Below are positions 2,301-64,000 of a stretch of DNA of 64,000 bases, piece by piece; within the stretch, counting starts at the first letter, position 1; each line of letters opens with the position of its first letter. Below the pieces are notes generated by a model that saw only the letters and a list, made by a program, of their open reading frames with translations, was not told the origin of the DNA and searched no databases. The DNA comes from Manis javanica (taxonomy: Eukaryota > Chordata > Mammalia > Pholidota > Manidae), in contig NC_133161.1 of the NCBI RefSeq assembly GCF_040802235.1, forward strand, positions 46,241,001 to 46,305,000, given 5' to 3'. The translations under genes and the position numbers were made by a program.

Positions 2301-2609
2301 TTGTAAAGCAATAATCATAACTCTGTTTAGGATGCTTTCAGACTACCTGGGGAGCTAAGACTTGGACCTATAAAAGTCAGGTAGTCAAGTGTAAGATTGG
2401 GTCAGAGGGGTAAAGAGTATTAGGAGATTTAGAACAGACCAGCCAGGGTGGGGGTGATGAGGGAAGAAGGCTGTGTCACTTCTTAGAGTTTTGCTGAGGA
2501 CCAAATATTTAAAGATTGAAGGCATAATTTACATTATACAACAAAAAGTCTGCACAGATTTTAAGTATTTGGTTGTAGCTTTTGATCATTGTATAACTCA
2601 GGTAATCAT

Positions 2610-3020
2610 TACCTCAGTCAAATATAGAACACTGCCATTACCCCAGAAAGCTCCTTGGTTCCTATCCAGCCAATTCCCACCACTCATAGAGGCAACAACC
2701 ATTCTGATTTCTATCGCCATAAACTAGCATTGTCTGTTTTAGAACTTCATATAAATGGAACCCACAGTATGTACCTTTTTGTGTCTAGCTTCTTTTACTC
2801 AGCATAATTATTTTAGGATTTACCCACATTATTACAGTTATCAATATATATAATTCCTTTTTATGGCTGTGAGAGAGATGTTAAACTTTATAAAGAAACT
2901 GCCAAGCAGTGCCCCAAAATGTGCATATCATTATATACTCCCACCAGCAATGTACAAGAATTCTAGTTATTCCATATGTTCACCTCAGTGTTGTCAGTAC
3001 TCTTTATTTTAAGGTTTCAT
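2610..3020 (-). repeat. Old L1M fragment (3' part of ORF2 region)
   Basis: Antisense L1 landmarks are visible: 'tataaatggaacccacagta', 'tagcttcttttactcagcat' and 'actcccaccagcaatgtac'. These correspond on the minus strand to the ORF2 C-terminal region of ancient L1M elements. An internal deletion lies near 2865-2885. Confidence 0.65.
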
Positions 3021-3071
3021 TTTTTAAAATGCACTCAACTGTGTAATGAGACCAAGGCCTCTGAAGAGCAA

Positions 3072-3110
3072 TTTAGCATAGTGATTAAGAATATGAGTCC
3101 TTGGAGGATA
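3072..3110 (+). repeat. MIR 5' fragment
   Basis: 'tagcatagtgattaagaata' followed by 'tgagtccttgga' matches the 5' start of MIR. It is cut off by the L1M fragment that follows. Confidence 0.4.
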
Positions 3111-3640
3111 ACCTAGAAACATAAAGAGAATTACAGATGTAATGACCTTTTAACCTAGGAACCCCACTTTTAGGCATCTACCTACATTTATATCTGTTAG
3201 TACAAGATAATAAATGTACAGATTTATTCATTGCAATATTATAAGTAATAATAAACAGTTAGAAAGAATGAAAGGACCCAGTAACAGGGAACTGGCTGAA
3301 TAAACTAGAGTACATCCACACAGTGGAGTTCTAAGAAGTTCCAAAGAAAGAATGAGAAGTATTTGTATGCACTGAGGTAGAGAGAGCTCCAGAATATAAC
3401 ATTAAGTGAAAGAAAATTTTAAAAAGCGGTATATGTACAAAGTGAGGAGGAGTTACAATAAGGATATACAATCTACACACACACACATGAAAAGCAAAGC
3501 CCCACTACGTGGGACATATAGATAAGAAACTAGTAAAATATGGTTACATGTAGGAGAGACAAGGTTGAGGGAGCCAGCATGGAAATAAGGCTTCTCTGTG
3601 AATATTTTTCCATATAGTTTTGATATTGAATTATTACATG
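3111..3640 (+). repeat. Old L1M fragment (ORF2 3' end and 3' UTR)
   Basis: Sense-strand L1M landmarks are 'aggaaccccacttttaggca', 'ttattcattgcaatattata', 'gggaactggctgaataaact', 'gtacatccacacagtggag' and 'taacattaagtgaaag'. It is heavily decayed with no usable frame. Confidence 0.65.
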
Positions 3641-4390
3641 CATTACCTACTTACAAATTGCAACTAAAAAAAATCCTGTAATTGAAAAACAAACCTAAAC
3701 ATATCTAATTGGTAACTTGATCACACAGAAAAATTGTAGAAAGAAACACACTGATTTTGTGAAAATCTGTGAGCTCATAATGATAATTAAAAAGAGAAAA
3801 GAATCAGTCGTCATCACTGAGGTTGTCATTAAGAATCCCCTCCCTTTAAACTGACAAAGGAAGAAGCATATATTGTAGCTACCATACAGCATGCTCCTCC
3901 TGATGGAATGCCGTATGAAACACACAACAACACCCAAAATATATTCTCAACAAAATTTGTTAATATGCATTAACCAAGTTCTTAGATGTGACTTCTGATT
4001 TACAGGAAATACAGGGGACAGAGGAGCAAGCTAAGTGACCACGTGAGGAAGCATTCAGACAAACATTGAGAAGGAATATTAGTAGATAAAAAAAAGGACT
4101 GTTTTAGATTTAAAATACCTAAGGGACATATAAACTAGATAAAATGCCTGGTCTTGACCTAAATCCTGATTTGGACAAACCAGCTTTGGGAGAACCGTTA
4201 CAATTAGGGTTATTTCCACATAATCAAGGTATTAGTTGCCATGGAAATTCACTGACAATGAAAGAGATTATAAAAAGAAAACAAGCTATTTACAACATGA
4301 TCTCATTTTAATAAAAAATACATATATGTATACTAAGAGATCTGGAAATATATATAATAAGATTAACATTTAATGGTCTCTGGTTGGTGG
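3641..4390. other. Intergenic, nothing recognised
   Basis: AT-rich DNA without a recognisable gene or clear repeat. Confidence 0.5.
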
Positions 4391-4677
4391 GTGTATTAGT
4401 TTTCTACTGCTGCTGCACAAATGACCAAAATCTTGGTGGGTTAAGACAATAAAAAGTTAATATCTTACTGTTCTGTAATTCAGATGTCCAACATGGATTT
4501 GTGATCACATTGCGCCCACTAGGATAATCTAGGATACTCTCCCACCTCAAGGTCAGCTGATAAGCAACTTTAGTTCCATCTGCAATCTTAGTTCTCCTTT
4601 ATCACATAATTTAACATGTTCAAAATATCTGGGGATTATGATATAAGCTTTGAGGGGCCATTATCCAGCCTACCACA
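4391..4677 (-). repeat. MaLR-type LTR remnant with internal deletion
   Basis: It begins 'gtattagttttctactgctg' and ends 'ggccattatccagcctacca', the two ends of an inverted MLT1-type LTR. The middle ('aggataatctaggatactct', 'aaggtcagctgataagcaac') also fits. The central portion of a full LTR is missing. Confidence 0.55.
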
Positions 4678-23090: not shown

Positions 23091-24038
23091 CATGTTGAGG
23101 GTGGAGATGGGAGTTATTTTTTAAAAAACAATTTGTTTGTTTGAGATTAGCTAGCTATTTTCTTCAAAGTGTTTTGCTCTTGCACCACATGCAGTTTCTG
23201 TATCTTTTCAGAGTGCTTATCATAAATTAAAAATGTATCTACTTGTGTGTCTTTTCTTACCTCTGCCCACTTATGACTCTCCATTTCTCAGACAGGGCTC
23301 CACAAAGAAGAAAGCGCTAAGTATATATTCCTGGACTAAGTGTATCCCTTGACCCCCATCTGCTCTGGGCTCACTTTTTGGAAAGTATTGGCCTCTGCTT
23401 CCCTTTAATTTTGAAACACATTCTTTGACTATATGGCATTCAAAAGAAGGGTGACTTGCTCTGAGAAGAATACAGTTTGTTTGTTGGTTCTTATTTATAT
23501 ACGCTTACTGTCTTCATATGCCTTGTTTTGTCATATACTTTTTCTATTTTTTTTATTACTCAATACACACACACACTGCTTTTGATTTGTTTTTGCCTTG
23601 TGCTTAATTCTGTTTAGTTTGTTCTTGTTAGTATTGCTCATTTTTAAAATCTTTCTTTTAAGGTTCTTTTTAAAAGAACATAATTTAAACATCAAAAAAA
23701 AAGAGGGGGTGGAGCCAAGATGGCAGCATGAGTAGAGCAGCAGAAATCTCCTCCTAAAACCACATTTATCTATGAAAATACAACAAAGACAACTCTTCCT
23801 AAAATAGAGACTAGAGGACACAGGACAACATCCAGAACACATCCACACCTGAGAGAACCCAGCGCCTCAGGAAGGGGGTAAGAAACAAGCCCCGGCCTGG
23901 CGGGATCCGAGCGCCCCTCCCCCCAGCTCACAGCACGTGGAGAGGAGTCAGCAGGGAGGGAGAGGGAGCCCAGGAATGCTGAACCCCCAGCCCCAGCCTT
24001 CCAGACAAGAGCGCAGGCACAGTGCATGCGTGGGGTCC

Positions 24039-24384
24039 TGGACACTAGGGAAAGAGGGCGGCAGGACCAGTGAGTGGGTGCCTGAGGCCGAAGCCGGAGA
24101 ACAAAGAAATGGGAGTGGCCTTTTTTTTTCCCCTCTTTTTTTTTTTTGGCTAGTGCTTTTTGGAAGTCTTAAAGGGACAGGAACCCTAATACTAGGGAAA
24201 CAGGGAGGCAAGACTGGAGAGTGGGTGCCTGAGACTAGCACCTGAGGACAAAGAAAATTGTGCGTTTTACTTTTTTTTTGTTTTTTTAAATTATTTATTT
24301 AATTTTTCTTTTTTTTTTCTTCTTATGTTGTTGCTGTTATTGTTTTGGTTTAGAGAGTGCTTTTTGGAAGTCTTAAAGGGGCAG
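24039..24384 (+). repeat. Two-unit tandem repeat in L1 5' UTR
   Basis: Unit 1 starts near 24039 and unit 2 near 24189. Both contain 'actagggaaa.agg', 'agtgggtgcctgag', a long T-rich tract, and end in 'gtgctttttggaagtcttaaa' type text (24147 and 24355 regions). This resembles monomer duplication in an L1 promoter region. Confidence 0.6.
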
Positions 24385-24630
24385 GGCAGGACACTTAGTC
24401 CAGAGGCAGGGAATCTGGGGATCTCTGGGCACTTTAACCCCCTGGGCAGCAGGGAGCACAGAGGCCCCTTACTGAGATAAATAGCCTCCTGGCCACTCCC
24501 CCTCCAACGGGGCTCCACCATTTTGGAGGAGCAGCCCCAGCCAGGCCACGCCCACAGCAACAGCAGAGATAAACTCCATAGCAAACGGGCAGGTAGCAGA
24601 AGCCCTGTCTGCGCACAGCTGCCCAGCACA

Positions 24631-24649
24631 AGCCACTAGAGGTCGCTAT
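24631..24649 (+). promoter_or_regulatory. CTCF-like motif in L1 5' UTR (copy 1)
   Basis: Reads GCCACTAGAGGTCGCTAT, near the CTCF core with one key mismatch (GTC for GGC). It lies about 928 nt into the element. A matching site occurs at the same place in the older L1. Confidence 0.3.
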
Positions 24650-24738
24650 TCTCCCAGGAGAGGAAGGCCACAAACCAACAAGAAGGAAAGCTCTTCCAGC
24701 CGTCACTCGTACCAGCTCTGCAAACTATCTCTATCACT

Positions 24739-25626
24739 ATGAAAAGGGAAAACTACAGGCAGACAAAGATCACAGAGACAACACCTGAGAAGGAGACAGA
24801 CCTAACCAGTCCTCCCAAAAAAGAATTCAAAATAAAAATCATGAACATGCTGACAGAGATGCAGAGAAAAATGCAAGAGCAATGGGATGAGATGCAGAGA
24901 AAAATGCAAGAGCAATGGGATGAATTCCGGAGGGAGATCACAGATATCAGGAAGGAGATCACAGAAGTGAAACAAACCCTGGAAGGATTTATAAGCACAA
25001 TGGATAAGATGCAAGAGGCAATTGAAGGAGTAGAAACCAGAGAACAGGAACGTATACAAGCTGACATGAGAGAGATAAAAGGATCTCCAGGAACGAAACA
25101 ATACTAAGAACTATGTGACCAATCCAAAAGGAACAATCTCCATATTATAGGGGTCCCAGAAGAAGAAGAGAGAGGAAAAGGGATAGAAAGTCTCTTTGAA
25201 GAAATAATTGCTGAAAACTTCCCCAAACTGGGGGAGGAAATAATCGAACAGACCATGGAAATACACAGAACCCCCAACATAAAGGATCTAAGGAGGACAA
25301 CACCAAGACACATAATAATTAAAATGGCAAGAATCAAGGACAAGGAAAGAGTTTTAAAGGCAGCTAGAGAGAAAAAGGTCACCTATAAAGGAAAACCCAT
25401 CAGGCTAACATCAGACTTCTCAACAGAAACCCTACAGGCCAGAAGAAAATGGCATGATATATTTAATACAATGAAACAGAAGGGCCTTGAACCAAGGATA
25501 CTGTATCCAGCACGACTATCATTTAAATATGATGGCAGGATTAAACAACTCCCAGACAAGCAAAAGCTGAGGGAATTTGCTTTCCACAAACCACCTCTAC
25601 AGGGCATCTTACAGGGACTGCTCTAG
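24739..25626 (+). pseudogene. L1 ORF1 (RNA-binding chaperone), broken once
   Basis: L1 ORF1p binds L1 RNA as a coiled-coil trimer. Visible here: basic N-terminus, coiled coil (about residues 35-105) with two identical 11-residue units EMQRKMQEQWD at 40-50 and 51-61, then the RRM and C-terminal domain (HIIGVPEEEERGKG, ARRKWHDIFNTMKQKG). A TAA at 25105-25107 interrupts the frame; reading continues in the same frame afterwards to the TAG at 25624. Comparison with the older L1 suggests the 11 or so codons before the stop are out of frame, bounded by two small indels (around 25070 and 25107). Confidence 0.88.
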
Positions 25627-25821
25627 CTGGGAGCACTCCTAAAAAGAGCACAGAACAAAACACACAACATATGAAGAATGGAGGAGGAGGAATATGAAGG
25701 GAGAGAAGAAAAGAATCTCCAGACAGTGTATATAACAGCTCAATAAGCAAGCTAAGTTAGGCAGTAAGATAATAAAGAGGCTAACCTTGAACATTTCGTA
25801 ACCACGAATCTAAAGCCTGCA

Positions 25822-28800
25822 ATGGCAATAAGTACATATCTCTCAATAGTCACCCTAAATGTAAATGGACTTAATGCACCAATCAAAAGACACAGAGTAA
25901 TAGAATGGATAAAAAAGCAAGACCCATCTATATGCTGCTTACAAGAAACTCACCTCAAACCCAAAGACATGCACAGATTAAAAGTCAAGGGATGGAAAAA
26001 CATATTTCATGCAAACAACAGTGAGAAGAAAGCAGGGGATGAGTACTAATATAAGACAAAATAGACTTAAAAACAAAGAAAGTAACAAGAGATAAAGAAG
26101 GACACTACATAATGATAAAGGGCTCAGTCCAGCAAGAGGATATAACCATTCTAAATATATATGTACCCAACACAGGAGCACCAGCATATGTGAAACAAAT
26201 ACTAACAGAACTAAAGAGGGAAATAGACTGCAATGCATTCATTTTAGGAGGCTTCAACATACCACTCAACCCAAAGGATAGATCCACCAGGCAGAAAATA
26301 AGTGAGGACACACAGGCACTGAACAACACACTAGAACAGATGGACCTAATAGACATCTATAGAACTCTACATCGAAAAGCAACAGGATATACATTCTTCT
26401 CAAGTGCACATGGAACATTCTCCAGAATAGACCACATACTAGCTCACAAAAAGAGCCTCAGTAAATTACAAAATATTGAAATTCTACCAACCAATTTTTC
26501 AGACCACAAAGGTATAAAACTAGAAATAAATTCTACAAAGAAAGCAAAAAGGCTCACAAACACATGGAGGCTTAACAACATGCTTCTAAATAATCAATGG
26601 ATCAATGAACAAATCAAAATAGAGATCAAGGAATATATAGAAACAAATGACAACAACAACACAAAGCCCCAACTTCTCTGGGAGGCAGCAAAAGCAGTCT
26701 TAAGAGGAAAGTATATAGCAATCCAGGCACACTTGAAGAAGGAAGAACAATCCCAAATGAATAGTCTACCATCACAATTATTGAAACTGGAAAAAGAAGA
26801 ACAAATGAGGCCTAAAGTCATCAGAAGGAGGGACATAATAAAGATCAGAGGAGAAATAAATGAAATTGAGAAGAATAAAACAATAGCAAAAATCAATGAA
26901 ACCAACAGCTGTTTCTTTGAGAAAATAAACAAAATAGATAAGCCTCTAGCCAAAATTATTAAGAGAAAAAGAGAATCAACACAAATCAACAGAATCAGAA
27001 ATGAGAATGGAAAAATCACGACAGACTCCACAGAAATATAAAGAATTATCAAAGACTACTATGAAAACCTATATGCCAACAAGCTGGAAAACCTAGAAGA
27101 AATGGACAACTTCCTAGAAAAATACAACCTCCCAAGACTGACCAAGGAAGAAACACAAAAGTTAAACAAACCTATTACGAGCAAAGAAATTGAAATGCTA
27201 ATAAAAAAACTACCCAAGAACAAAACCCCGGGGCCAGACGGATTTACCTCAGAATTTTATCACACACACAGAGAAGACATAATACCCATTCTCCTTAAAG
27301 TGTTCCACAAAATAGAAGAAGAGGGAATACTCCCAAACTCATTCTATGAGGCCAACATCACCCTAATACCAAAACCAGGCAAAGACCCCACCAAAAAAGA
27401 AAATTACAGACCAATATCCCTGATGAATGTAGATGCAAAAATACTCAATAAAATATTAGCAAACAGAATTCAACAACATATCAAAAAGATCATACACCAT
27501 GACCAAGTGGGATTCATCCCAGGAATGCAAGGATGGTACAACATTCGAAAATCCATCAACATCATCCACCACATCAACAAAAAAGTAAGACAAAAACCAC
27601 ATGATCATCTCCATAGATGCTGAAAAAGCATTTGACAAAATTCAACATCCATTCATGATAAAAACTCTCAGCAAAATGGGAATAGAGGGCAAGTACCTCA
27701 ACATAATAAAGGTCATATATAATAAAGCTACAGCCCACATTATACTGAACAGCGAGAAGCTGAATGTATTTCCTCAGAGATCAGGAACTAGACAGGGATG
27801 CCCACTCTCCCCACTGTTATTTAACATAGTACTGGAGGTCCTAGCCACAGCAATCAGACAAAACAAATACAAGAAATCCAGATTGGTAAAGAAGAAGTTA
27901 AACTGTCACTATTTGCAGATGATATGATATTGTACATAAAAAACCCTAAAGACTCCACTCCAAAACTACTAGAACTGATATCGGAATGCAGCAAAGTTGC
28001 AGGATACAAAGTTAACACACAGAAATCTGTAGCTTTCCTATACACTAACAATGAACCAATAGAAAGAGAGATCAGGAAAACAATTCCATTCAAAATTGCA
28101 TCAAAAAGAATAAAATACCTAGGAATAAACCTAACCAAAGAAGTGAAAGACCTATACCCTGAAAACTACAAGTCACTCTTAAGAGAAATTAAAGGGGACA
28201 CTAACAAATGGAAACTCATCCCATGCTCGTGGATAGGAAGAATCAATATTGTCAAAATGGCCATCCTGCTAAAAGCAATATACAGATTTGATGCAATTCC
28301 TATCAAATTACCAGTAACATTCTTCAATGAACTGGAACAAATAATTCAAAAATTCATATGGAAACACCAAAGACTCCGAATAGCCAAAGCAATCCTGTGA
28401 AAGAAGAATAAAGTAGGGGGGATCTCACTCCCCAACTTCAAGCTCTACTACAAAGCCATAGTAATCAAGACAATTTGGTACTGGCACAAGAACAGAGCCA
28501 TAGACTAGTGGAACAGATTAGAGACTCCAGACATTAACCCAAACATATATGGTCAATTAATATTTGATAAAGGAGCCATGGACATACAATGGCAAAATGA
28601 CAGTCTCTTCAACAGATGGTGCTGGCAAAACTGGACAGCTACATGTAGGAGAATGAAACTGGACCATTGTCTAACCCCATACACAAAAGTAAATTCAAAA
28701 TGGATCAAAGAACTGAATGTAAGTCATGAAACCATAAAACTCTTAGAAAAAAACATAGGCAAAACCTTTTAGACATAAACATGAGTGACCTCTTCTTGAA

Positions 28801-29641
28801 CATATCTCCCCGGGCATGGAAAACAACAGCAAAAATGAACAAGTGGGACTATACTAAGCTGAAAAGCTTCTGTACAGTGAAAGACACCATCAATAGAACA
28901 AAAAGGAACCCTACAGTATGGGAGAATATATTTGTAAATGACAGATCCAATAAAGGCTTGACATCCAAAATATATAAAGAGCTCACATGCCTCAAAAAAC
29001 AAAAAACAAATAACCCAATTAAAAAATGGGCAGAGGAACTGAACAGACAGTTCTCTAAAAAAGAAATACAGATGGCCAACAGACACATGAAAAGATGCTC
29101 CACATCGCTAATTATCAGAGAAATGCAAATTAAAACTACAACGAGGTATCACCTCACACCAGTAAGGATGGCTGCCATCCAAAAGACAAACAACAACAAA
29201 TGTTGGTGAGGCTGTGGAGAAAGGGGAACCCTCCTACACTGCTGGTGGGAATGTAAATTAGTTCAACCATTGTGGAAAGCAGTATGGAGGTACATCAAAA
29301 TGCTCAAAACAGACTTACCATTTGACCCAGGAATTCCACTCCTAGGAATTTACCCTAAGAACACAGCAATCAAGTTTGAGAAAGACAGATGCACCCCTAT
29401 GTTTATCGCAGCACTATTTACAATAGCCAAGAATTGGAAGCAACCTAAATGTCCATCGATAGATGAATGGATAAAGAAGATGTGGTACATATACACAATG
29501 GAATACTACTCAGCTATAAGAAAAAGGCAAATCCTACCATTTGCAACAACATGGATGGAGCTGGAGGGTATCATGCTCAGTGAAATAAGCCAAGCAGAGA
29601 AAGAGAAATACCAAATGATTTCACTCATCTGTGGAGTATAA
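25822..29641 (+). pseudogene. L1 ORF2 (endonuclease and reverse transcriptase), multiply broken
   Basis: APE-type endonuclease N-terminus (LNVNGLNAPIKRHRV, QETH), reverse transcriptase with the FADD catalytic box at about 27913-27924, and the normal C-terminus ending ...SLICGV then TAA at 29639. Frames change or stop near 26049, 27041, 27600, 27925, 28400, 28772 and 29209, so no functional protein is expected. The span (about 1270 codons) is normal for mammalian L1. Confidence 0.9.
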
Positions 29642-29719
29642 GAACAAAGGAAAAACTGAAGGAAGAAAACAGCAGCAGAATCACAGAACTCAAGAATGGA
29701 CTAACAGGTACCACAGGGA

Positions 29720-29785
29720 AAGAGACTGGGGAGGATGGGTGGGTAGGGAGGGATAAGGGGGGGTGAGAAGAAGGGGGGTATTAAG
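29720..29785 (+). other. G-rich tract of L1 3' UTR
   Basis: Repeated runs of three or more G ('tggggaggatgggtgggtag', 'ggagggataagggggggtga') form a G-quadruplex-type motif, a known feature of mammalian L1 3' UTRs. The same tract recurs in the copy at 62.3 kb (63177-63230). Confidence 0.7.
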
Positions 29786-29979
29786 ATTAGCATGCATGGG
29801 GTGTGGGAGAAATGGGAGGGCTGTACAACACAGAGAAGACAAGTAGTGATTCTACAACATTTTGCTATGCTGATTGATAGTGACTGTAAAGGGGTCTATA
29901 GGGGGGACCTGGTATAGGGGAGAGCCTAGTAAAGATAATATTCGTCATGTAAGTGTAGATTAATGGTAACAAAAAAAAA

Positions 29980-30655
29980 GCAGTTCCTGTGTGGTGACCT
30001 CCAGTGAGTTATACACAATGGTATAAAGGCATATCAAAGTGAGGGCAAAGGGTCTGTTTGTGTTTATACAGAGGATCAATGCCTAATTTGGCTACCCAGA
30101 AAATGAGCTAAGATACGATATGAAGAAGAACTTCTAACATCAGCACTCTCTGGAAGAGTCATACCAGAAGATGATCATCAAAAAACCTCAACAAAGATCC
30201 AGGCAATGCAGCACTTGTAGCTGCATCCATCCCACCGCTTCCTGGACTTGCCATTGGAATGAAGAAGAAGATATCTAAGATGGCCTGTGCTTTCATTAAA
30301 GCAACAAATTTGACTGGATCTATACTGTTGGAACTCAACCAAGAATTAGGAGAAGTGCAAGTTGTAGCGCTCCAAAATCTTACGACTACAGACTATCTAC
30401 TGTTAAAAGAACATATGGGATGTGCACAGTTCCCAGAAATGGGTTGTTTTAATTTTTCTGATTTCTCTCAGACTGTTCAAGTACAGTTGAACAATATCCA
30501 TCATATCATAGACAAATTTTCACAAATGCCTAGGGTGCCTAACTGGTTTTCTTGGCTTCACTGGAGATGGCTGGTAATTATAGATCTGCTTTGGTTATGT
30601 AACTGTATTCCTACAATGTTAATGCGTGTGCACAATTTAATTAGTAGTTAAAACC
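29980..30655 (+). pseudogene. Endogenous retrovirus env 3' part (SU tail and TM), copy 1
   Basis: The frame 30259-30651 (130 codons from its first ATG) encodes most of a retroviral TM subunit and is open upstream to about 30190 through a hydrophobic Ala/Pro stretch that could be the fusion peptide. Visible: LQN-type segment near codons 45-55, a Cys loop C...GC (CX7C), and a Trp-rich membrane-proximal region followed by a hydrophobic anchor. The usual CX6CC has G in place of the middle Cys. Upstream SU-tail codons (about 30021-30103) are in another frame and hit TGA at 30104. An A-run at 30180-30185 is one base shorter than in copy 3, which separates the SU and TM frames. There is no gag, pro or pol. 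Confidence 0.75.
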
Positions 30656-31109
30656 TATACATGCTTAAGTTACTCTACAAGAAGAAATAATCAATCCTCC
30701 CATGTTTTCTTCCGTCTGCTACCTCTATAGCTTTTCTTCCTCCTTCCTAATTACAACACTTAAATAGAATTCATGCCTCATATCGAATTTACTGAGTATC
30801 ATAATTCCTCCAAGTGGTAAAGATACCTCAAGACAAATGTTGGGCATAGAAGCCACAGGGCATAAATCTGCAAAGAAGTAAAAAGCTAACCTTTTCAAAC
30901 AATATGGCTTCTCTCTCACTTACCAACTTTACTTCTCCCTGTATGGCCCTGGAAGATGACTGGTTAGCCAGAGACGGGTAAGATTCCTCAAGGGAGGAAC
31001 AACCTAAGACAGGCACAGTCGCAGGGGGACCATCAGGTGAGAAATTGGGGATCAACAGTGGTAAGGCTCAGAACCTCACCCCCACTGTTTTGAGAGAAAG
31101 CTTCTGCAT

Positions 31110-31122
31110 CCGTGGATGTTTT
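31110..31122 (+). repeat. Target-site duplication, left (copy 2 insertion)
   Basis: GTGGATGTTTT at 31112-31122 is repeated exactly at 33057-33067. The match extends to 13 bp with one C/T difference. Confidence 0.85.
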
Positions 31123-31150
31123 TATTTATTTATTTATTTATTTATTTTTT

Positions 31151-31473
31151 GAGAGGGCATCTCTCATATTTATTGATCAAATGGTTGTTAACAACAATAA
31201 AATTCTGTATAGGGGGGTCAATGCTCAATGCACAATCATTAATCCATCTCAAGCCTAATTCTCATCAGTCTCCAATCTTCTGAAGCATAACAAACAAGTT
31301 TTTACATGGTGAACGAATTCTTACATAGTGAATAAATTCTTACATGGTGAACAGTACAAGGGCATTCATCACAGAAACTTTCGGTTTTGATCACGCATTA
31401 TGAACTATAAACAATCAGGTCAAATATGAATATTCGTTTGATTTTTATACTTGATTTATATGTGGATCCCACA
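31151..31473 (-). repeat. LTR (U3-R) of copy 2
   Basis: 323 bp, starting TGTGGGATCCACA on the minus strand immediately after a polypurine tract and ending GATGCCCTCTC before the A-rich tail. Same length and same end as the LTR in copy 1. No U5 follows. Confidence 0.75.
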
Positions 31474-32096
31474 TTTCTCCCTTTATTATTATTATTTTTA
31501 ATAAAATGCTGAAGTGGTAGGTAGATGCAAGATAAAGGTAGAAAACATAGTTTAGTGCTGTAAGAGGGCAAATGTAGATGATCAGGTGTGTGCCTATGGA
31601 CTTACTATTAATCCAAGCTAGACAAGGGCCGCAAAACATCCACGGATGCAGAAGATTTCTCTCAAAGCAGGGGGGTGAGGTTTTGAGCCTCACCTCTGTT
31701 GATCCCCAATTTCTCACCTGATGGCCCCCCTGCGACTGTGCCTGTCTTAGGTTGTTCCTCCCTTGAGGAATCTTACCCGTCTCTGGCTAACCAGTCATCT
31801 TCCAGGGCCATACAGGGAAATGTAAAGTTGGTAAGTGAGAGAGAAGCCATATTGTTTGAAAAGGTTTGCTTTTTACTTCTTTGCAGATTTATGCCCTGTG
31901 GCTTCTATGCCCAGCACTTGTCTCGAGGTATCTTTACCACCTGGAGGAATTATGATACTCGGTAAATTCGATATGAGGCATGAATTCTATTTAAGGGTTG
32001 TAATTAGAAAGGAAGAAGAAAAGCTATAGAGTTAGCATATGGAAGAAAACATGGGAGGATTGATTATTTCTTTGACATATCTTCTTGTAGAGTACC

Positions 32097-32549
32097 TTAA
32101 GTATGTATAGGTTTTAAACTACTAACTAATTTGCACACACATATTAACATAATAGGAATATGGTGACATAAACAAAGCAAATCTATAATTACCATCCATC
32201 TCCAGTGAAGCCAGGAAAACCATTTAGGCACCCTAGGCATTTGTGAAAATTTGTCTATGATATAATGGATATTGTCCAACTGTACTTGAACCATCTGAGA
32301 GAAATCAGACAAATTAAAGCAGCCCATTTCTGCGATCTGTTCAAATCCCATATGTTCTTTTAACCGTAGATAGTCTATAGTCATAAGATTTTGGAGTGCT
32401 ACACCTTGCACCCCTCCCAACTCCTGGTTGAGTTCCAACAGTACAGATCCGGTCAAATTCGTTGTCTCACTGTATGCACATGTCAGCCTAGACATCTCCC
32501 TCCTCATTCCAATGGCAAGTCCAGGAAACGGTGGGGTGGATGCAGCCAC
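32097..32549 (-). pseudogene. Endogenous retrovirus env TM, copy 2
   Basis: 150 open codons covering the presumed fusion peptide, LQN-type segment, Cys-loop region, Trp-rich membrane-proximal region and hydrophobic anchor, ending at a TGA. The first Cys of the loop is Phe here, so the loop disulfide would be lost. Collinear and highly similar to copy 1. The start at 32549 is a GTG, so this is only the open stretch, not a proven start. The A-run upstream is also short relative to copy 3. Confidence 0.72.
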
Positions 32550-33054
32550 AACCGCAGCATCGTCCGGATCCCTGTGGAGGCTTTTTGATGATCATCCCCG
32601 GCACAAGTCCTCCAGAGAGTGCTGATGCCGGAAGCTCCTCCTCATATCGTATCTTAGTTCATTTTCTGGGTATCCAGGCTTGGCCTTGATCTTCTGCATA
32701 GAAACAAACAGGCCCTTTGCCCACACTTTGACATGCCCTCTATACCACTATGCAGAACTCATTGGAGGTCAGCACACAGGAACTGCTTTTTTTTTTTTTA
32801 TTAAGAGAAGGGAATATTATCAGAGAAGAGTACCTCCATAGCTGATCATCTGACACCCTTTAAGTGATCAACATTAAGGATATTTAAAGCATGCGTTGAT
32901 CTTTGATTTACCAATAGTTTTATCCTATCAAGGAGTAATCCCCCTTTTCTTTCTTTCTTTCTTTTTTTTTTTTAATCTTTAATCTACACTTACATGAAGA
33001 ATACTATGTTTACTATGCTCTCCCCTATATCAGGTCCCCCCTAACAACCACATT

Positions 33055-33067
33055 CTGTGGATGTTTT
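33055..33067 (+). repeat. Target-site duplication, right (copy 2 insertion)
   Basis: CTGTGGATGTTTT followed by AATGCC. The sequence GATGTTTT/AATG contains the L1 endonuclease site TTTT/AA at the insertion point. Confidence 0.85.
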
Positions 33068-33224
33068 AATGCCCTTGTCTAGCTTGGATTAACACACAGT
33101 CTATAGGCACACACTTGCTCATCTACAATTGCTCTCTTACAACACTAAACTATGTTTTCTACCTTTATCTTGCATCTACCTACCACTTCAGCATTTTATT
33201 AAAAATAAAAATAATAATAATAAT

Positions 33225-33558
33225 AAAGGGAGAAATGTGGGATCCACATATAAATCAAGTATAAAAATCAAATGAATATTCATATTTGAGCTGATTGTTT
33301 ATAGTTCATAATGCGTGATCAAAACCGAAAGTCTCTGTGATGACTGCCCTTGTACTGTTCAACATGTAAGAACTTATTCACTATGTAAGAATTTGTTTAC
33401 CATGTAAGAACTTGTTCGTTATGCTTCAGAAGATTGGAGACTGATGAGAATTAGGCTTGAGATGGATTAATGATTGTGCATTGAGCGTTGACTCCCTTAT
33501 ACAGAATTTTATTGTTGTTAACAACCATTTGATCAATAAATGTGAGAGATGCCCTCTC
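33225..33558 (+). repeat. Polypurine tract and LTR (U3-R) of copy 1
   Basis: AAAGGGAGAAA (33225-33235) directly precedes TGTGGGATCC, the normal junction of a retroviral polypurine tract and 3' LTR. TATAAA-type sequence lies only about 14 bp into the LTR. AATAAA sits at 33535-33540, and the element ends 18 bp later at 33558 in poly(A), so the end is an RNA cleavage site, not an LTR CA end. Confidence 0.75.
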
Positions 33559-33588
33559 AAAAAAAAAAAAAAAAGAAAGAAAGAAAGT

Positions 33589-61942: not shown

Positions 61943-62492
61943 TACGGGAATTTGCAAATTTAACCCTGCAGTTTAACAGTAATGGAGACAGGTAACTGGA
62001 TGCCTGTTGGCGAGTAGAGTCCTTTCAGGGAAACTGAAGCCACTAGTGTGTGACCAGGACAGTAAGATATCTTTGTTCTCATTAAATTTCTGCTGTAGCT
62101 GAAACAGATAGGAATTGAATCAGATCCACTGATGTGTTAGGATTCAATATGGAATGTGTGGCTGCAGCCTAAAAAATGAAGGTGTTAACCATGGGCTAAC
62201 ATGGCCGTGGTCTATTTTCCCATTTTAGTTGTTAAATCAAATGGAAGTAAACATCGAAAACATTAAACAAACCACCAAAAGGGTAAACTAGGTGTGGTAT
62301 ATTCATTTGCTCTATTTAAAACTGAAGCTTCTTCTTCTGTACAGCAAAAGACACCATCAATAGAACAAAAAGGTATCCTACAGTATGGGAGAATATACTT
62401 GTAAATGACAGATCCGATAAAGGCTTGACATCCAAAATATATAAAGAGCTCACCCACCTCAACAAACAAAAAACAAATAATCCAATTAAAAA

Positions 62493-63104
62493 ATGGGAAG
62501 AGGAACTGAACAGTTCTCCAAAAAAGAAATACAGATGGCCAACAGACACATGAAAAGATGCTCCACATCGCGAATTATCAGAGAAATGCAAATTAAAACA
62601 ACAATGAGGTATCACCTCACACCAGTAAGGATGGCTGCCATCCAAAAGACAAACAACAACAAATATTGGGGAGGCTGTGGAGAAAGGGGAACCCTCCTAC
62701 ACTGCTGGTGGGAATGTAAATTAGTTCAACCATTGTGGAAAGCAGTATGGAGGTTCCTTAAAATGCTCAAAATAGACTTACCATTTGACCCAGGAATTCC
62801 ACTCCTAGGAATTTACCCTAAGAATGCAGCACTCAAGTTTGAAAAAGACAGATGCACCCCTATGTTTATCGCAGCACTATTTACAATAGCCAAGAATTGG
62901 AAGCAACCTAAGTGTCCATCAGTAGATGAATGGATAAAGAAGATGTGGTACATATACACAATGGAATATTACTCAGCCATAAGAAGAAAACAAATCCTAC
63001 CATTTGCAACAACATGGATGGAGCTAGAAGGTATTATGCTCAGTGAAATAAACCAAGCAGAGAAAGAGAAATACCAAATGATTTCACTCATCTGTGGAGT
63101 ATAA
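62493..63104 (+). pseudogene. L1 ORF2 C-terminal fragment (203 open codons)
   Basis: Ends with the same ...SLICGV terminus and TAA as copy 1 and has no break in this stretch, but has no endonuclease or reverse transcriptase domain because the copy is truncated. It includes the cysteine-containing C-terminal region ([13 protein letters not shown]). Confidence 0.85.
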
Positions 63105-63603
63105 GAACAAAGGAAAAACTGAAGGAACAAAACAGCAGAACCCAAGAATGGACTAACAGGTACCAAAGGGAAAGGGACTGGGGAGGATGTGTGGGTAGGG
63201 AGGGATAAAGGGGGGAAGAAGAAAGGGGGTATTATGATTAGCATGTATAATGGGGAGGTTGGAGAAAGGGGAGGGCTGTACAACACAGAGAAGACAAGTA
63301 GTGATTCTACAACATTTTGCTATGCTGATGGACAGTGACTGTAAAGGGGTTTGTGGGGGGGACCTGGTATAGGGGAGAGCCTAGTAAACATAATATTCTT
63401 CATGTAATTTGTAGATTAATGATAAAAAAAAAAGAAAGAAAAGGAGGATTACTCCCTGATAGAATAAAACTAACTGTAAATCAACGATTAATGCATGCTT
63501 TAAATATCCTTAATTTTGATCATTTAAAGGGTGTCAGATGATCAGCTATGGAAGGTGAAAGTACATTTTTCTGATAATATTCCTTTCTCTTAAAAAAAAA
63601 AAA

Positions 63604-64000
63604 GCAGTTCCTGTGTGGTGATCTCCAATAAGTTCTTCACAATGATATAAAGGGCATATCAAAGTGTGGGCAAAGGGTCTGTTTGTGTTTATACAGAGGA
63701 TCAAAGCCTAATTTGGCTACCCAGAAAACAAATTAAGATGCGATATGAAGAAGAACTTCCAACATCAACATTCTCTGGAAGAGTCATTCCAGAAGATGAT
63801 CATCAAAAAAACTTCAACAAAGATCCTGGCGCTGTTGCAGCTGTAGCTGCATTCATCCCACCGGTTCCTGGACTTGCCATTGGAATGAAGAAGGAGGTAT
63901 CTAAGCTGGCCTGTGCATACAGTAAAACAACAAATTTGACTGGATCTATACTGTCGGAACTCAACCAAGAATTAGGAAAAGTGCAAGTTGCAGCGCTCCA
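63604..64000 (+). pseudogene. Endogenous retrovirus env SU tail and TM start, copy 3 (partial)
   Basis: The SU C-terminal tail and TM start are joined in one open frame from about 63660 to the window edge. The A-run at 63805-63811 has seven A, against six or fewer in copies 1 and 2. The hydrophobic Ala/Val-rich stretch (about 63833-63880) is the likely fusion-peptide region. The rest lies outside the window. Confidence 0.7.

Follow-up and report, generated by a model that had tools for sequence, protein, structure and literature searches.

The retrotransposon described here joins a LINE-1 (L1) to a piece of an endogenous retrovirus (ERV), and three copies of it, E1, E2 and E3, lie in a stretch of 64,000 nucleotides of the Manis javanica genome (contig NC_133161.1, positions 46,241,001 to 46,305,000), hereafter the window. 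The parts of this composite follow a fixed order, namely L1, an A-run, the end of a retroviral integrase, the transmembrane subunit (TM) of env, a long terminal repeat (LTR) and a poly(A) tail. They are inserted as one unit via the L1 route, since the poly(A) stands at one site, target duplications surround the whole, the targets are of the TT/AAAA type and copies are truncated at the 5' end. It is nearly certain that the composite is itself a mobile unit. Very probably, it represents a high-copy L1 lineage with a retroviral fragment as its 3' end, founded by a sense insertion of an L1 into a provirus and read-through of the transcript; this whole statement is put no more strongly because some L1 ends contain an ATTAAA and because template switching offers a rival origin.

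The junction between the two parts is marked by the motif GCAGTTCCTGTGTG, which occurs exactly three times in the window: at 29980 on the plus strand, at 32773-32786 on the minus strand and at 63604 on the plus strand. The preliminary description of this DNA had claimed one junction repeated three times, and its coordinates were off by at most one base. When up to two mismatches were allowed, four matches to the motif were obtained in the window, with a mean of 0.38 in shuffled sequences; four were reached in 0 of 100 shuffles. Self-BLAST places an L1 3' untranslated region (3'UTR) upstream and one common retroviral piece downstream of all three junctions, and BLAST found no retroviral piece outside the context of an L1 in the window. 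The interval 23703..33588, first taken as one element, does contain composites, but they are two, E2 being nested in E1. The third, E3, breaks off at 64000, where the window ends. The parts of the three are as follows (ORF, open reading frame).

23703..29970, plus strand: full-length L1 of E1 with broken frames (5'UTR, ORF1, ORF2, 3'UTR), from Pfam matches on frame pieces
29971..29979, plus strand: A-run at the L1/retrovirus junction of E1, in the linker-less form
29980..31122, plus strand: retroviral piece of E1 (integrase end, TM part of env, on into the LTR), interrupted by E2
33057..33562, plus strand: remaining LTR of E1, stopping shortly past AATAAA
33563..33577, plus strand: poly(A) tail of E1
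31123..33056 (about), minus strand: E2, a complete composite nested in the LTR of E1 at TT/AAAA, flanked by AAAACATCCAC and preceded at the 5' side by about 12 additional bases of its own
32963..33043, minus strand: final 81 bp of the L1 3'UTR of E2, 88.9% identical to E1
32800..32962, minus strand: linker of E2, a retroviral integrase sequence
31147..32786, minus strand: retroviral piece and LTR of E2
31123-31146, minus strand: poly(A) tail of E2
62334..63423, plus strand: 5'-truncated L1 of E3 (end of ORF2 and 3'UTR), its ORF2 94.6% identical to E1
63424..63603, plus strand: A-run, linker (about 63436-63591) and second A-run of E3
63604..64000, plus strand: retroviral piece of E3 up to the window end, 90.2% identical to E1

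The L1 part of E1 carries the ORF1 and ORF2 domains by which a LINE-1 is recognised, as its frame pieces match Transposase_22 (E 2e-25), Tnp_22_dsRBD (E 1.5e-19) and RVT_1 (E 7.4e-12) in Pfam. The window holds one more L1 (33657-40010, minus strand), an older and ordinary copy, the 3' end of which lacks the retroviral piece. It has a target duplication of its own, identical at 17 of 18 positions, and is useful as a control.

The same junction was then counted in the whole 2.56-Gb genome. The pattern counts are of exact matches and include segmental duplicates, and as counts of the repeat they are lower bounds. The 14-mer of the junction was found 6,539 times, while its reversed control occurred 7 times. 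The L1 end joined to the linker was met exactly 2,283 times, and the L1 end joined to the retroviral piece without the linker at least 633 times (controls 0 in both cases). Thus, the outcome in which only a few such junctions exist genome-wide did not appear. A 20-mer from the L1 end was found 6,557 times (control 0), a count outside which E1 and E3 fall, as they have variants of it. The LTR end has 18,164 exact matches, of which 16,612 (91.5%) run into A6 (controls 0).

How regularly the L1 ends bear the retroviral piece was seen from the first 100 L1-end sites in the list for contig C1, which cover its first 37 Mb. A listed junction or motif lies near 59 of these. Among the remaining 41, 40 were read, and 39 of them have the linker or the ERV. 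With one of the 100 sites unread, the retroviral piece is therefore present at 98 of the 99 examined L1 ends, and because of this it is to be regarded as the 3' end that an L1 subfamily normally has, something that the three elements of the window alone would not have revealed. The sole examined end without the piece, L079, runs into an A-rich stretch and then into other DNA; it is perhaps a relative from before the capture, or else a deletion.

Further evidence comes from an unselected sample of motif sites, comprising 32 of the first 35 listed on C1, within its first 10 Mb (22 sites in 20 loci, plus 10 more; the sites at 8.617, 8.620 and 8.903 Mb were omitted). As many as 30 of the 32 are joined to an L1, and the other two, L028 and L037, are truncated within the linker. 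Target duplications were sought outside the whole composite and were found at six distinct loci. L015, a full-length copy running from L1 through ERV to LTR, is flanked by an exact 15-bp duplication. The duplication of L023 is also of 15 bp, with 2 bp overlapping the called L1 start, that of L016 is of 16 bp with one mismatch, and that of L026 is of 12 bp, 3 of them overlapping, and is partly A-rich. L035 and L036 have a common 16-bp duplication, exact in the former and with one mismatch in the latter. The sixth locus is E2, where AAAACATCCAC stands on both sides (31112 and 33057) and an exact 11-bp duplication core lies at the TT/AAAA of the LTR of E1; an equal score was reached in 6 of 2,000 random flank pairs. 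E1 itself has a possible 11-bp A-rich duplication with its 5' flank, which is not decisive.

An automatic duplication test gave a score of at least 11 at 5 of 14 testable sites. L015, the start of which this test placed too far in, and E2, which it left unscored, were recognised by direct reading. When flanks were swapped between sites, 2 of 182 pairs reached 11, and these we infer to be L035 and L036 crossed with each other. The duplications, the poly(A) and the TT/AAAA-type site are those of LINE-1-type insertion by target-primed reverse transcription. The preliminary description had also held that the chimera multiplied after its fusion, and this is borne out by the thousands of exact junctions and by the duplications enclosing the whole composite; separate duplications for the L1 and the env-LTR pieces did not appear.

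The retroviral piece was identified from several of its parts. A profile built from 14 TM fragments, compared with solved structures, matched the fusion TM of avian sarcoma/leukosis virus (ASLV) with E 1.3e-13. A frame of E3 gives a match to the integrase C-terminal domain that lies below the threshold (E 0.0052, 16.5 bits, cut-off 21), and the linker peptide, when searched alone, gave no meaningful match. The link was provided by L009, in which a diverged relative of the retrovirus (2495-4652) directly precedes an old copy of the composite; L021 is a duplicate of this locus. The relative resembles the composite at 78% over the linker, at 82% over the 5' part of the piece and, after a gap of about 0.8 kb, at 70% over TM. 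In L009, a frame that stops 10 bp short of the linker homologue has matches among solved integrases, the best with E 2.4e-5. A second integrase-core fragment was observed at 4272-4652 of the same locus.

Since the alignment of the L009 relative is continuous across the second A-run, the linker, this A-run and the part that follows are one retroviral stretch. The earlier layout thus stands for the L1 end, the A-run, TM and the LTR poly(A) end, but the supposed linker and the supposed tail of the env surface subunit are both retroviral integrase. The linker described before is found in E2 and E3 but not in E1, and the second A-run belongs to the retrovirus itself. The region of about 0.8 kb between the integrase end and TM, taken as the surface subunit, is missing from the composite, and of env the TM part alone was recognised there. 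In E1, in E2 and in those sampled copies of which the end is readable, the LTR stops at one base a little past AATAAA, and poly(A) follows.

Scans of viral contigs and genome contigs with exact patterns gave no matches, and scans of both for relatives of TM found none. In other sources, the TM/integrase piece was met in 39 distinct protein clusters (25, then 14 more), and three database proteins have the L1 end, the A-run and the linker joined. One Manis javanica gene model (P0036, peroxisomal multifunctional enzyme type 2-like isoform X2) has sequence from the retroviral piece at its end, as if a composite copy had been exonised from a splice acceptor within that piece.

As for the origin, the founder would have been an L1 inserted in sense in the integrase gene of an alpha/beta-like ERV. 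Its transcripts would have passed the integrase end, TM and the 3' LTR and been cleaved at the LTR poly(A) signal, and later copies would have been mobilised in cis by L1 proteins from intact members. As the linker comes from the same retrovirus, one capture suffices; the linker-less sub-lineage may have arisen by a deletion between the two A-runs. The suggestion that an L1 read through and borrowed the LTR poly(A) signal agrees with the common end point after AATAAA, but it is not proven, for the same junction would be given by template switching, the main rival. There, during one L1 insertion, the reverse transcriptase would copy retroviral RNA from the LTR poly(A) and then switch to an L1 RNA at its tail, and the product would multiply. 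Such an event would leave the order of L1, A-run, 5'-truncated retroviral RNA and poly(A) that is seen, and L1 chimeras with other RNAs are known (PMC13174262). No direct evidence contradicts it; read-through, however, works without a jump, and its A-rich target is one that the L009 relative also shows. Template switching is an unlikely origin of the founder.

Two other explanations concern the multiplication rather than the fusion. An independent env-LTR retroposon whose 5' end is fixed could have inserted many times in the A-tails of L1 copies. The A-tails of composites do take insertions, as the extra 5'-truncated LTR ends of L018 and L025 indicate, and the copies truncated within the linker would fit as well. 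Nevertheless, the piece sits on nearly every L1 end examined, nearly all motif sites read adjoin an L1 at the same place, and the target duplications are found beyond the 5' end of the L1; this explanation was accordingly rejected as highly improbable. The copies could also stem from a small number of chimeric loci by segmental duplication, and in the sets L009/L021, L011/L012/L017 and L014/L022 the flanks are indeed at least 97.6% alike. The other loci differ in their flanks, truncation points and target duplications, and sites are located on C1 and C2 as well as on C6, which carries the window. Segmental duplication explains part of the count, but as a general explanation it is contradicted by the loci with target duplications and has next to no likelihood.

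Returning to the L1 lineage founded by read-through, several observations weigh against it. No target duplication was found at 7 of the 14 testable sites, and several sampled sites are segmental duplicates, so the copies are not all insertions. Single TM or linker fragments matched no Pfam family above the cut-off. The L1 ends of E1 and E3 have neither AATAAA nor ATTAAA, whereas an ATTAAA precedes the A-run in the L1 end of E2 and in many listed copies, which weakens the argument that the L1 had no own poly(A) signal; on the other hand, a plain L1 end was met only once in 99. A founder locus did not turn up, no genome-wide search aimed at it having been made.

Several arrangements of the copies were also observed. 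Within the first 2.2 Mb of C1, L011, L012 and L017, together with L029-L034, lie in blocks of at least 14.5 kb that occur in both orientations and are 97.6-100% identical; these are segmental duplications with a composite inside. An explanation of the shared flanks of L011, L012 and L017 as 3' transductions was rejected, as the homology extends for at least 3 kb on both sides. Two head-to-head composites with a motif spacing of 4,759 bp occur at three places on C1, namely at L014, at L022 and near 23.476/23.481 Mb; L014 matches the reverse complement of L022 at 99.9%, and in one arm ORF2 carries an internal deletion. In L018 and L025, two or three partial LTR ends stand in tandem, each after poly(A), which suggests that A-tails receive truncated copies or that some of the tails have been repeated.

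The ERV piece and the L1 3'UTR have diverged to a like degree between E1 and E3, which speaks for the L1 lineage with a retroviral 3' end. Between these two, 37 of 394 positions differ in the ERV piece, 23 of 314 in the L1 3'UTR and 38 of 771 in ORF2, as if the ERV piece had evolved like non-coding 3'UTR. Among 28 copies (25 sampled ones, with duplicates set aside, and E1-E3), three groups are formed by the TM region, while downstream of TM there is one group, except for L009 and L028. Over the TM region (29980-30640 in E1), E1, E2 and E3 differ by 10-19%, and there is hardly any difference downstream; it looks as if the TM segment had been exchanged between lineages. The closest pair of copies, whose 3' flanks are unlike, differs at 5 of 1,060 sites of the retroviral piece, so that activity was recent. 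Of eight full-length copies in the sample, one has frames of 1,289 and 326 amino acids.

No L1-retrovirus composite of this kind was found described in the literature, in a search to which Repbase and Dfam did not belong, in keeping with the earlier remark that this composite is not known as a described family. An L1 3' transduction consists of L1, an A-run, non-L1 sequence and a second poly(A), within one outer target duplication. All of this is found here, but the extra sequence is retroviral, has its own LTR poly(A) signal and occurs on almost all ends of a subfamily. The SINE-R of SVA elements consists of env plus LTR. The composite likewise has a 3' part from retroviral env and LTR with the poly(A) at the LTR signal; SVA, however, is non-autonomous with a hexamer, an Alu-like part and a variable number tandem repeat at its 5' side, in place of which the sampled full-length copies have an L1. 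PMC7353768 describes the 3' part of SVA as coming from an endogenous retrovirus, and the element as poly(A)-tailed and L1-mobilised. A provirus would have two LTRs, with U5 after R. In the composite, poly(A) stands where U5 would be, as the LTR ends running into A6 show, and no LTR was found upstream of the full-length sampled copies within the stretches fetched. The composite is thus neither an SVA nor a provirus.

For HERV-W, L1 reportedly makes retrocopies of retroviral RNA. ARTenvV, in the part of PMC9604959 that treats it, is also retroviral RNA inserted by L1. Retrocopies of both kinds share the target duplication and the A-tail, but, as far as these accounts extend, no L1 sequence is joined to them on the upstream side, and they do not serve any L1 family as a tail. 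The chimeras of PMC13174262 are alike in that L1 and foreign RNA are inserted together; those in its available text are human 5' joins with small RNAs, Alu or mRNA, with no retroviral 3' ends seen there, and neither 'ERV' nor 'pangolin' occurs in its main text. An engineered mouse L1/MaLR-LTR chimera at Axin1 has part of an L1 ORF2 and an LTR in one sequence, but it is one construct and no family, in the portion of PMC6500023 concerned. In a pangolin provirus, ERV-Gamma.b9-Mpen, a LINE-1 lies between env and the 3' LTR and thus beside both; it is described as a single disrupted gammaretroviral element, and the corresponding section of PMC12584738 mentions no mobile composite family.

Two separate classes of mammalian retroelement are united here in one highly successful mobile unit, in which a retroviral LTR serves as the 3' end of a LINE. 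The case is parallel to the SINE-R of SVA, but on a full-length L1. As a tentative suggestion, for which the chances are a little short of even, the captured LTR end may have given an autonomous L1 an advantage, so that it became a main recent pangolin L1 and more than 16,000 retroviral LTR ends were spread by the LINE machinery; the captured end would be the poly(A) signal, perhaps with U3 or an RNA-export sequence included. Some of the sequence that annotation would assign to LTR or env in this genome belongs to L1 3' ends, with consequences for ERV counts, for dating and for regulatory maps. An L1 lineage can thus bear a foreign 3' end and still expand.

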